From Sulfitobacter sp. DSM 110093 (lineage in GTDB: Bacteria; Pseudomonadota; Alphaproteobacteria; Rhodobacterales; Rhodobacteraceae), in assembly GCF_022788715.1 (NCBI RefSeq), contig NZ_CP085170.1, positions 124,001-188,000 of the forward strand: a DNA stretch of 64,000 nt. The letters run 5' to 3'. The notes under the pieces are model-generated. The model was not told where the DNA came from. It did no database searches and saw only the letters and a list, made by a program, of their open reading frames with translations. Numbering within the stretch: position 1 is the first letter of the stretch; each line of letters begins with the position of its first letter. Positions 21,585 through 24,060 of this stretch are shown piece after piece. The position numbers and the translations under genes are program-made.

Positions 21585-21614
21585 GTGGATTCACAAATGA
21601 AGTGCGAATTCTGT
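21585..21614. repeat. IS30 left inverted repeat
   Basis: Begins GTGGATTCAC and ends GCGAATTCTGT. Aligns with the reverse complement of 24032-24060 with one gap and scattered mismatches, as is normal for IS30-family terminal repeats. Confidence 0.7.
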
Positions 21615-21645
21615 ATCAATACAGGACCTTGCATGGAGTTGATCA

Positions 21646-22182
21646 ATGGGACGCTGCTACCCTCACCTAAACCTCGAAGAACGCCGCAAGCTGGCCAAAT
21701 GGCTTGATGCGAAGATACCAATCAAAGAGATCGCCGACAATCTGCGTCGCGCGCCCTCAACAATCTACCGCGAGATCAGGCGGAACTTCTATCATGACGA
21801 AGAACTGCCACAGCTGAACGGCTACCACGCTGTGAACGCGCAGGACAGATACGAACAACGCCGCGCGGTGCATCGTAAGTTGATCCGATATCCTGACATC
21901 ATGGCGGCAGTCCGCGACGGACTTGATGCGGGTTGGTCGCCTGAACAGATCGCGGGACGCATGCGGCAAGAGTGCCATCCCATGCGCGTCAGCCATGAGA
22001 CGATCTATCGTTATGCTTACTCCAAAGACGGCCGTGCTGAGAAGTTCTATCGCCATTTACCAGAGCATCGCCGACGCCGCAGGCCACGCGGAACCCGCAG
22101 GCATCATGGGCGCAGATTTCTTGATGAAATTGCCATAGCCCATCGCCCCGAAGCGATAGCCGAACGTAGCCAATTCGGGCAT
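21646..22182 (+). pseudogene. IS30-family transposase, N-terminal fragment
   Basis: 179 codons reading MGRCYPHLNLEERRKLA at the start. This includes the IS30 helix-turn-helix (IKEIADNLRRAPSTIYREIRR) and a second DNA-binding segment (WSPEQIAGRMRQE, VSHETIYRYAY). It stops after QFGH, exactly where intact IS30 transposases continue WExD, the first catalytic Asp of the DDE triad. The interruption is the IS1111-type element, so this fragment has DNA binding but no catalytic core. Reading on into the insertion gives an immediate stop. Confidence 0.88.
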
Positions 22183-22187
22183 TGATG

Positions 22188-22199
22188 GTGTGGATGCCC
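22188..22199 (+). repeat. IS1111-type left subterminal inverted repeat
   Basis: GTGTGGATGCCC, five bases inside the left junction; its perfect reverse complement is at 23536-23547, one base inside the right junction. Asymmetric subterminal placement is typical of IS1111 elements. Confidence 0.85.
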
Positions 22200-22268
22200 C
22201 ACCCCTGAAGCGGCATCAAAGTGTGCCATAATGGTGATGTTGAAAGCACCAAATTGGAGGAAGCATCC

Positions 22269-23294
22269 ATGAATGAAGTTACAATGATCGGCGTCGACTT
22301 GGCAAAGTCCGTTTTCCAGGCACACGGCGCGACGGCTACTGGTGAGCCAATGTTCCGCAAGAAACTAACTCGGGGTCAGTTCCTGAAGTTCTTGGGCGAA
22401 CAGCCCTCTTGCGTGGTCGCAATGGAGGCATGTGCGTCATCGCACTACTGGGGTCGCGAGATCATGAAGTTGGGCCATGACGTCCGCTTGATCCCACCTA
22501 TCTATGTGAAGCCATTCGTTAAGCGCCAGAAGAATGACGCAAACGACGCCGAGGCCATTGCGGAAGCGGCAGTCAGGCCCACAATGCGATTTGTTCCTGT
22601 CAAATCGGCTGAACAACAATCCCGTTCGATGGTCTTCAAGACACGGGATTTGTTTGTTCGGCAACGTAACTCCATCATCAATGCGCTGCGTGGTCATTTG
22701 ATGGAATACGGGATCATCGCCCCTCCCGGTCGGAACTTTGTAAAGAAGTTAGCTGAACAGATTGATAGCCCGGATTGTGACCTGCCTTCAATTGTTATTG
22801 AACTCAGCCATATACACTTGGATCAGCTAAGTATCATTACTGACAAAATAGTTGCGATAGAGCGGCGCCTGAAAGAAGAATCGAAATCCGACCCAGAAAC
22901 GATCCGATTGCAAACTGCGCCGGGGGTCGGACCTGTGAGTGCAATGGCGATCAAGGCATTCTCCCCGCCGCTAGAAGGCTTCAAACGCGGTCGGGATTTT
23001 GCGGCATGGCTGGGTCTGGTCCCGGTTCAGAAATCAACAGGTGGGCGGCAAGTGTTGGGGCGAACATCAAAGATGGGGCAACGCGACATCCGACGACTGC
23101 TGATCATCGGCGCCATGACCCGGATCAGATGGGCGATCAAAAATGGACCACCTAAAGGGTCGTGGCTTGAGCAAATGTTAGAACGCAAACCACGTATGTT
23201 GGTCGCAATCGCGTTGGCTAACAAAACAGCCCGAACCATTTGGGCAATGATGACGAAGCATGAAGATTATCGAGATCCGATCGCGACGGCGTAA
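22269..23294 (+). CDS. IS110/IS1111-family transposase (DEDD recombinase)
   Basis: 341 residues. N-terminal RuvC-like DEDD domain: Asp10 in IGVDLAKSVFQ, Glu53 in AMEACASSHYWG, and Asp90/Asp93 in KNDANDAEAIAEA. A central coiled region leads to the C-terminal Transposase_20 domain (TAPGVGPVSAMAI, FAAWLGLVPVQKSTGG, and RTSKMGQRDIRRLLI). Start ATG 22269 has a good GGAGGAAG ribosome site; an in-frame GTG at 22221 has none. The family recombines DNA guided by a structured RNA from its own non-coding end. Nothing in the frame suggests inactivation. Confidence 0.93.
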   Translation: MNEVTMIGVDLAKSVFQAHGATATGEPMFRKKLTRGQFLKFLGEQPSCVVAMEACASSHYWGREIMKLGHDVRLIPPIYVKPFVKRQKNDANDAEAIAEAAVRPTMRFVPVKSAEQQSRSMVFKTRDLFVRQRNSIINALRGHLMEYGIIAPPGRNFVKKLAEQIDSPDCDLPSIVIELSHIHLDQLSIITDKIVAIERRLKEESKSDPETIRLQTAPGVGPVSAMAIKAFSPPLEGFKRGRDFAAWLGLVPVQKSTGGRQVLGRTSKMGQRDIRRLLIIGAMTRIRWAIKNGPPKGSWLEQMLERKPRMLVAIALANKTARTIWAMMTKHEDYRDPIATA

Positions 23295-23304
23295 GCCTGC
23301 AACG

Positions 23305-23535
23305 CTCGGTATGATGTGAGAAGGACATTGAGACAGTAAGGACAAATGATCGACCAGATCGAGGTTAGGAAAACCAGGCACTCCCAGAGAGCTCCGCGCT
23401 CGTGTCATTGATATGGACCCAACCTTCGCATCGCCATACCGGCCCGCGGCATGTGAAACGTCGCAAATTGAGGCCTGACACATGACCGTACCCGATCACA
23501 TGTTTAAACCGTCAAATTATCTCTTGCATCAAAGC
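23305..23535 (+). ncRNA. Putative bridge RNA (seekRNA) of the IS1111-type element
   Basis: The 254-nt 3' non-coding end (23295-23548) has no gene. Four short segments fit a bridge RNA in order. Left target guide GGACATTG (23323-23330) resembles target GGGCATTG (22177-22184), 7/8. Right target guide GCACTCCCA (23378-23386) is the exact reverse complement of target TGGGAGTGC (23549-23557). Left donor guide ACACATG (23478-23484) equals the element's right end plus the TG core. Right donor guide ACCGTCA (23508-23514) pairs with TGATGGT (22183-22189) with one G:T wobble. Each guide meets at the TG core. RNA ends are approximate; expression and structure are inferred. Confidence 0.62.
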
Positions 23536-23547
23536 GGGCATCCACAC
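23536..23547 (+). repeat. IS1111-type right subterminal inverted repeat
   Basis: GGGCATCCACAC, the perfect reverse complement of the left repeat at 22188-22199. It is followed by one base and then the IS30 reading frame (TGG GAG TGC GAT). Confidence 0.85.
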
Positions 23548-23548
23548 A

Positions 23549-24019
23549 TGGGAGTGCGATCTGGTGATGTTCCGCAAGGAGTTTGGGAAAGCGAATGTGA
23601 CTTCGTTGGTCGAACGCGTGAGCCGGTTCGCTGTCGTTTTAAAGAACCCAGATCGTCAGTCAAAGCCGGTGATGGAAGGCCTGATTGATAGCTTATCTCC
23701 CCTGCCCGCTGAAGCCCGTCGCAGCATCACATTTGATCGCGGCACAGAGTTCACTGCCTGGCGGCATTTGAAAGCTGGGCTTGGTGTCGACGCTTGGTTC
23801 TGCGACCCCCAATCGCCTTGGCAGAAGGGTACGGTCGAAAACACCAACAACCGTCTACGCCGCTACCTTCCGCGAAAGGCTGATCCCACGGTGTTCACAG
23901 ATCGATATTTAAGGTCGATCTGCGACCGTCTCAACAGCACGCCGCGCAAGTGTCTGGGGTATCAAACGCCCGCTGAAGTCTTCCGATTGAACCTGATGGA
24001 AAGGGTGACGTCACCCTGA
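23549..24019 (+). pseudogene. IS30-family transposase, C-terminal catalytic fragment
   Basis: Continues the interrupted transposase: WECDLVMFRKEFG supplies the first catalytic Asp, ITFDRGTEF the second, and WQKGTVENTNNRLRRYLPR the catalytic Glu. Thus all DDE residues are on this fragment and the DNA-binding domain is on the other. 156 codons plus stop. An internal ATG at 23564 could start a shorter peptide, but it would lack the first Asp. Non-functional unless the insertion is excised. Confidence 0.88.
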
Positions 24020-24031
24020 TAAACTGATCAA

Positions 24032-24060
24032 ACAGAAATTGCGCTTCAACGTGAGTTCAC
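24032..24060. repeat. IS30 right inverted repeat
   Basis: ACAGAAATTGCGC...GTGAGTTCAC, reverse complement similar to 21585-21614; marks the right end of the IS30 element, directly against the kdgK remnant. Confidence 0.7.

Follow-up and report, generated by a model that had tools for sequence, protein, structure and literature searches.

The IS1111 insertion sequences ISEc11, ISPa11 and ISKpn4 encode a seekRNA that matches the target, with the segment matching the top strand placed 5' of the segment matching the bottom strand (Siddiquee et al. 2024, PMC11187229; this paper and the next are cited from parts of their text). The ISEc11 RNA is described there in a short form of 82 nt and a long form of 154 nt, and the role of the long seekRNA is said to remain to be established. 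The bridge RNA of IS621 contains four guides, and the 5' side of each of its loops pairs with the bottom strand (Durrant et al. 2024, PMC11208160); the same study predicted bridge RNAs in 93.0% of IS1111 elements and pointed to potential donor-binding bases in a multi-loop of many IS1111 RNAs. Here we describe an IS1111-type element that interrupts the transposase gene of an IS30-family element in a 64,000-nt stretch of the genome of Sulfitobacter sp. DSM 110093 (NZ_CP085170.1, positions 124,001 to 188,000; hereafter the window, to which coordinates refer). That IS1111 elements guide their targeting by RNA is already known from the seekRNA work of 2024. Comparison of the window element with its relatives makes it very probable that it moves by RNA-guided recombination and that its two-loop RNA carries, besides two target guides, a left donor guide and probably a right one.

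The element is complete and 1,366 bp long (22183-23548), and because TG is present at both ends the limits 22185-23550 are equally valid. Its assignment to IS1111 in an earlier reading made from the letters alone (the sequence-only reading) is borne out by the recombinase, which matches PF01548 (DEDD_Tnp_IS110) and, C-terminally, PF02371 (Transposase_20) above cut-off and contains the IS1111 motif GL-P----S(t)G (GLVPVQKSTG at residue 249). The inverted repeats also have the subterminal IS1111 form, GTGGATGCCC lying 7 bp from the left end and GGGCATCCAC lying 3 bp from the right end, which is the usual right extension in IS1111. A non-coding region of 254 nt (23295-23548) follows the recombinase gene. 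The motif and the 7-bp left extension are stated in PMC11187229, and the element resembles the seekRNA elements described there in its DEDD recombinase, its 7- and 3-bp extensions, its long 3' non-coding region and the lack of a target duplication.

The insertion was precise. In an uninterrupted IS30 of Sulfitobacter indolifex the counterparts of the two flanks, one reaching to 22182 and the other beginning at 23549 of the window, abut directly (392 of 400 left and 396 of 400 right bases identical), with no target duplication and no base gained or lost. The sequence-only reading had the start right but ran the element on to 23557; the last nine of those bases are target, and the right end is 23548 or 23550. 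Insertion occurred between the codons Q-F-G-H and W-E-C-D-L of the IS30 transposase, in a motif that holds a catalytic aspartate. Four identical copies of the element are found in the genome. Three are in copies of the same IS30, with identical junctions, and the fourth lies elsewhere (G000:C2:283085), in a gene with a match to the PMT glycosyltransferase family in its right flank. This fourth copy, with the same 3' end at an unrelated site, has the same nine bases as its right half (CTCAC/TGGGAGTGC, compared with GGCAT/TGGGAGTGC in IS30), and at both sites the left half pairs with the left target guide defined below at 6 of 7 positions, so that the refuting condition set by the sequence-only reading turns out in its favour. 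The genome has three IS30 matches, every one of them interrupted, and a search for a free CAYTGGGAGTGC came back empty; this carries little weight, since about one would be expected by counting and a reversed control pattern was also absent.

The interrupted IS30 (21585-24060 in the window, and its copies) lies at three places with different outer flanks, and the IS30 with its passenger may therefore have been moved by IS30 transposase acting in trans. If so, the three IS30 locations would represent a single insertion event followed by passive spread of the composite. Two of the IS30 copies are alike over 601 and 513 bp around the element and then diverge, the third is identical over 483 and 396 bp, and all three junctions are the same, as such spread would predict; it does not account for the fourth copy, whose site is unrelated and matches the guides. 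We regard passive spread of the three IS30 copies as evenly balanced against separate insertion, and it is compatible with guided insertion having taken place at least twice.

To compare guides with their putative partners we gathered relatives from genomes and plasmids, obtaining 121 transposase matches that represent 108 distinct combinations of element and flank. Nine of these were left out (loci L045, L103, L030, L034 and L126 for odd ends, L116 and L027 for short flanks, and two L065 rows), L039, L008 and L147 were not recovered by automatic extraction, and 10 of the 80 loci kept lacked believable subterminal repeats. The resulting first set comprised 99 elements, and clustering their non-coding regions at 90% identity gave 67 clusters; the nearest relative among the 80 loci kept is from Sulfitobacter maritimus (recombinase 99% identical). 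In the pairing test, standard and G:T pairs between guide and DNA were counted over the 67 cluster representatives, and the control consisted of 1000 random reassignments of the flanks. Such permutation leaves some relatedness in place, which is addressed in part by controls in which the guides were slid (0.03-0.65 for the four supported guides) and by a second set of elements.

For the second set, 56 of the 67 representatives were aligned (alignment A1), two being dropped at below 44% identity and nine more left out (L078, L035, L137, the second element of L115, L129, L131, L130, L128 and L132), and a covariance model (R1) was built from them. R1 matched RNAs in 25 of 61 genomes of the family and in 61 of 349 drawn from the phylum, our own genome being in both, and scored the RNA of the window element at 160.3 bits. 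The second set drew on 41 loci, namely all 29 new ones from the phylum search and 12 of the 28 new ones from the family search. Of their 42 matches, 20 had ends that could be located, and 19 of these were used, none a near-duplicate of the first set and some related to it, with guide positions fixed beforehand. Elements whose core differs between the ends (L162, L209, L171 and L225, 4 of 20) or whose ends are odd (L219 and the second L223 match) were kept, as were L165 and L184, relatives of first-set L018.

Several lines of evidence indicate that the RNA contains two target guides. In the window copy GCACTCCCA (23378-23386) is the exact reverse complement of the right target half TGGGAGTGC, a given 9-mer being expected about 0.001 times in 254 nt; the sequence-only reading had proposed it as a guide, and the relatives agree. 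Over nine positions the right target guide (RTG) scored 0.707 against 0.472 when permuted, and the left target guide (LTG, 23402-23410) scored 0.799 against 0.492, none of 1000 permutations doing as well in either case, while the outer two positions of the LTG were not above chance. The second set gave similar values (RTG 0.732 against 0.450, LTG 0.817 against 0.506; 0/1000 each), and among the 46 first-set representatives with a TG core all four guides, target and donor, reached 0/1000 on their own. When window-aligned non-coding columns were scanned against flank and end positions (15,206 tests), the guides emerged as diagonals among the top rows, pairing left target positions -1 to -5 with 23408-23404 and right target positions 3-8 with 23384-23379; the first five rows, zero-variance artefacts in which paired equals expected, and several rows labelled RE, which compare the end with itself, were disregarded. 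In the 13 closest elements, the window's included, the stretches at about 23378-23386 and at 23404-23410, just before TGAT, vary with the flank, a comparison that the sequence-only reading had asked for; the segment at 23323-23330, discussed below, does not follow it. The RTG lies 5' of the LTG, that is, the top-strand match comes first, which is the IS1111 order (PMC11187229).

Counted in fixed alignment columns over all 99 elements, the RTG pairs at 8 of 8 positions in 46, at 7 in 14, at 6 in 5 and at 1-5 in 34, and the LTG at 7 of 7 in 51, at 6 in 36 and at 5 in 12; in L042, L043 and L046 the fixed columns step over one extra base of the left guide. The 34 poorly paired elements weigh against the guided reading, as do two close relatives among the poor matches (L145 with 3 of 8 and L046 with 5 of 8) and the window copy's own LTG, which pairs at 6 of 7 positions. 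Some of the poor RTG matches have loops of different length, and others may be off-target or mis-ended.

A different placement of two of the guides had been suggested by the sequence-only reading, with GGACATTG (23323) as left target guide and ACCGTCA (23508) as right donor guide, in an IS621-like order. All four strings on which that reading drew are where it placed them, and these two do match the window copy: GGACATTG agrees with GGGCATTG at 7 of 8 positions (counting alone predicts 0.094 matches of 7 or more of 8 in the non-coding stretch), and ACCGTCA pairs with TGATGGT with one wobble. In relatives, however, they track neither flank nor end. GGACATTG scored 0.402 against 0.385 (160/1000 permutations as good; 20/1000, marginally above chance, with TG cores alone) and ACCGTCA 0.579 against 0.570 (203/1000; 128/1000 with TG cores alone). 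Moreover, 23323-23330 lies outside the covarying fold, and close relatives keep TGATGGT while the segment at 23508 varies. We consider this placement very improbable; the left target guide is at 23404-23410, and the right donor guide is better read at 23433-23437 (GCCAT).

The relatives also bear on whether the recombinase itself might recognize the IS30 codons, the similarity to the RNA being incidental. Ten of the 17 elements with a recombinase more than 70% identical lie at the W-E codons of IS30-type genes, as a protein preference would predict, and an eleventh (L145) matches in the left half only. Elements with recombinases 78% and 77% identical nevertheless lie in an IS66 TnpB gene (L044) and in a Tn3 transposase gene (L049), and in each the guides pair at 8 of 8 and 7 of 7 positions, wobbles included. 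Two others fit in part: L042 (8 of 8 RTG, 5 of 7 LTG), which lies in a DDE_Tnp_1 gene, and L046 (5 of 8 RTG, 7 of 7 LTG), which occupies an ISL3-type gene on the opposite strand. Together with the identical copy in a host gene with a guide match and the flank permutation tests in both sets, these switches make a preference set by the protein scarcely credible. Close relatives are usually found at the conserved W-E-x-D codons of IS30 transposases, and members of the clade retarget by changing their guides. A precedent for the choice of site is ISEc21, which targets the codons around the second D of IS3 transposases and so likewise uses conserved motif codons of another transposase (PMC11187229); unlike the window element it belongs to the IS110 side of the family, and its target is IS3 rather than IS30.

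The guides occupy the loops of a conserved fold. A consensus of 36 pairs was paired in 91.6% of cells, compared with 84.1% in shuffled controls and 22.6-43.9% when slid, and 25 of the 36 pairs had changed on both sides (covariation score 0.291 against 0.157, 0/500). The RTG faces the LTG across the first internal loop, and the two donor guides face each other across the second. Covariation in this fold is strong. As a caution, the sequences used to derive the stems overlap with those tested, so that the fold test lacks independence from the alignment. Pairing is weakest in the outermost helix (67.7%), and when the window sequence is folded alone the two target guides partly pair with each other. 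A scan of the window against Rfam at gathering scores gave no match. The target hairpin with neighbouring bases measures 83 nt (23346-23428) and the whole predicted RNA 166 nt, sizes that resemble the 82 and 154 nt of the ISEc11 RNAs (PMC11187229).

The stronger of the two donor guides is the left (LDG), which is identical to the last five nucleotides of the element plus the core. In the representatives it scored 0.983 against 0.854 permuted (0/1000), and it is exact (7 of 7) in 93 of 99 elements across 13 different sequences of end plus core, among them ACACATG, ACAAAAG, ACACACG, ACATACG, ATGCACG and AGACATG, tracking even single-base changes of the end, core included. In the second set, scored without the core, it reached 0.905 against 0.784 (0/1000). 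This agrees with the sequence-only reading, which took ACACATG for the right end plus TG and hence for a donor guide. The opposing segment, the probable right donor guide (RDG), scored 0.907 against 0.855 in the first set (0/1000) and partly tracks the left end there (ATGGA with UCCAU, ATGGC with GCCAU, ATGGT with GCCAU by a wobble, and ATGC with GCAU). Pairing of the RDG with the core was looked for in the first set and not seen, the bases 3' of CCAU failing to track it. The conserved CGATCACATG (23492-23501) had been a candidate for the right donor guide and was dropped, as it is unchanged in AG-core elements.

Several observations count against the RDG. It pairs at 5 of 5 positions in only 37 of 67 representatives; all eight representatives with an AG core mismatch its fifth base; L018, L035, L123, L168 and L215 mismatch further in, L168 being an outright exception (left end ATGCT, RNA CACCAU); and in the second set (n=19) it scored 0.798 against 0.770, with 184 of 1000 permutations as good.

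Distant elements, read by eye, offer a further comparison. IS4321/IS5075 are IS1111 members that target the terminal repeats of Tn21-type transposons. The IS4321 element (L226) has a recombinase 36% identical and a different target and different ends, and it nonetheless shows at the corresponding places an identity (ATAGATT for the right end ATAGA plus TT) and a complement (CUCAU for the left-end ATGAG); L232, of the same type, gives the same donor readings. A Raoultella element (L229, 40%) has ATCTATG for ATCTA plus TG and UCCAU for ATGGA, as well as both target guides, and a Photobacterium element (L231, 38%) has an exact LDG and an RDG matching at 4 of 5 positions. In these four the 7-base LDG match occurs once per non-coding region besides the end itself. 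The 5-base RDG match is also found at other places (two or three in L226, L229 and L232) and therefore weighs only through its position. The other three of the seven classical plasmid elements (L227, L228 and L230) gave no clear subterminal repeats by the rule applied and are therefore uninformative.

The donor reading has to be weighed against a seekRNA that serves the target only, in which 23478-23484 would be a DNA or protein site that occurs twice, such as a further binding site of the recombinase, and the protein would recognize the ends through the subterminal repeats. The short ISEc11 seekRNA with its target matches was reported to be sufficient for transposition (PMC11187229), so that in that assay a donor loop may be dispensable. 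The LDG, moreover, is an identity rather than a complement, and a duplicated DNA site would look alike, while the complementary RDG fails to stand out in the second set. Yet the LDG lies in an internal loop, within the covarying fold, opposite a segment complementary to the other end; it follows single-base changes of the end including the core; and the RDG segment of the first set changes with the left end. On balance we judge a target-only RNA unlikely.

We think it likely, instead, that the seekRNAs of IS1111 elements are bridge RNAs in full, with a donor loop forming the 3' half of their long version and reading the 7-bp and 3-bp extensions, and that IS1111 and IS621 have the same order of guides once their ends are named by the RNA. 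A donor loop reading extensions outside the repeats would explain why IS1111 repeats are subterminal. Like IS621, the window RNA has two internal loops, target then donor, with two guides per loop around a core dinucleotide (PMC11208160). Unlike IS621, it lies at the right end (at the left end in IS621), its guide sides are exchanged when named by the gene, its clade has a TG, AG, CG or GG core, and the core takes part in RTG, LTG and LDG and not in the RDG, compared with all four pairings in IS621 (PMC11208160). We infer that in both groups the donor guide on the 3' side reads the end at which the RNA gene is located, such that they would differ in the direction in which gene and RNA are transcribed relative to the ends and share the logic of the RNA. 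The donor loop here is a simple internal loop supported by covariation, to be compared with the multi-loop noted in PMC11208160; relative to ISEc11, ISPa11 and ISKpn4, the element differs in its IS30 target and in this support for a donor loop, where PMC11187229 leaves the role of the long seekRNA open. Covariation evidence for an IS1111 donor loop was not found in the literature searched, and may exist in figures, supplements, preprints and subscription journals, which lay outside the search.

Comparison among relatives supports the RNA fold, the guides and their targets, including the guide RNA in the 3' end, the guide-paired insertion into the IS30 site and the TG core put forward by the sequence-only reading. 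The RNA itself, the circle, the protein-RNA complex and the use of the RNA are deduced from sequence, which tempers the proposal. In the mechanism we envisage, joining of the ends in a circular form would complete a promoter that transcribes recombinase and RNA. The predicted junction, ...GGGCATCCACACA-TGATGGTGTGG..., would place TTGCAT (23524) 17 nt from CATGAT, a possible counterpart of the junction promoter reported for ISEc11; of 67 cluster representatives, 58 have CTTGC at a distance of 26 nt from the right end. In the target loop, as the comparison supports, the RTG on the 5' side and the LTG on the 3' side pair with the halves of the site around the TG core; in the donor loop, the LDG on the 3' side matches the right end plus core, and the RDG on the 5' side probably pairs with the left end. 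The RNA would thereby hold target and circle-junction DNA at their common TG, where the recombinase would exchange strands, giving precise insertion in a single orientation.

The comparison maps the guides of an IS1111 clade position by position and documents 13 natural sequences of end plus core and several natural target switches, which form a ready set of natural reprogramming events. It also makes two questions directly testable, the role of the long seekRNA and the reason why IS1111 inverted repeats are subterminal, and it presents an element whose insertion sites are conserved codons within the transposition genes of other elements (IS30, IS66 and Tn3). The features are collected in Table 1.

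Table 1. Features of the IS1111-type element and its insertion site (window coordinates).
Feature	Position	Strand	Details or basis
IS30-family element interrupted by the IS1111 copy	21585..24060	+	transposase split ...QFGH/WECDL...; ends approximate
IS1111-type insertion sequence, 1366 bp	22183..23548	+	comparison with intact IS30; same end pattern in relatives
Left 7-bp extension TGATGGT	22183..22189	+	bases 1-2, core; positions 3-7, right donor half
Left subterminal inverted repeat GTGGATGCCC	22190..22199	+	
IS110/IS1111 DEDD recombinase, 341 aa	22269..23294	+	Pfam DEDD_Tnp_IS110 and Transposase_20
Predicted two-loop guide RNA (bridge RNA / long seekRNA)	23340..23505	+	closing stems 23340-43/23502-05 and 23348-52/23493-97
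Target-binding hairpin (predicted)	23362..23425	+	stems 23362-69/23418-25 and 23374-76/23414-16; apical hairpin 23389-92/23398-401
Right target guide CACTCCCA	23379..23386	+	reverse complement of core + right target; G 23378 also pairs in window copy
Left target guide GTCATTG	23404..23410	+	left target 5 nt + core; corrected position
Donor-binding hairpin (predicted)	23426..23489	+	stem 23426-28/23487-89; apical stems 23441-44/23472-75 and 23446-50/23460-64
Probable right donor guide GCCAU	23433..23437	+	pairs with left-end ATGGT (one G:T)
Left donor guide ACACATG	23478..23484	+	last 5 nt of element + core
Possible -35 TTGCAT of circle-completed promoter	23524..23529	+	17-nt spacer, then CATGAT across right/left junction
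Right subterminal inverted repeat GGGCATCCAC	23536..23545	+	
Right 3-bp extension ACA	23546..23548	+	

Some relatives are remnants or have unusual ends. Two identical decayed IS1111 3' ends with a recognisable guide RNA (68.2 bits) lie at G000:C2:207175-207336 and C3:152105-152266 (L155 and L156), between galE-like and beta-barrel-like reading frames (named by eye) in a duplicated surrounding region of 3 kb and with no recombinase match nearby; we considered them as stand-alone guide RNAs and set this aside, as they look like decayed remnants. L166 (G048:C3:51019-51179) is an internally deleted element of about 430 bp that retains both subterminal repeats, roughly the first 30 codons of the recombinase and the whole guide RNA, and on its right it is flanked by the left end in inverted form; it is possibly an element that carries a guide and lacks a transposase. 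In L145, on a Leisingera thetidis plasmid, the right end abuts TGACACATGACC, a sequence equal to the donor-guide part of the RNA gene; it looks as though recombination had taken place between one copy and another copy's RNA gene.

Among other members of the clade, L042, L046, L077, L115, L013 and L012 lie in or beside other mobile-element genes (DDE_Tnp_1, ISL3, DDE_3) or at GGCTCTGT/TGCACAAATCG, which we take to be a sequence of the IS terminal-repeat type. Finally, in L059, L078, the second element of L115 and L129 the dinucleotides differ between the ends (for example AG on the left and GG on the right), and in L129 the LTG and LDG read AG and the RTG reads GG; such mixed elements could show which strand of the core comes from which partner.

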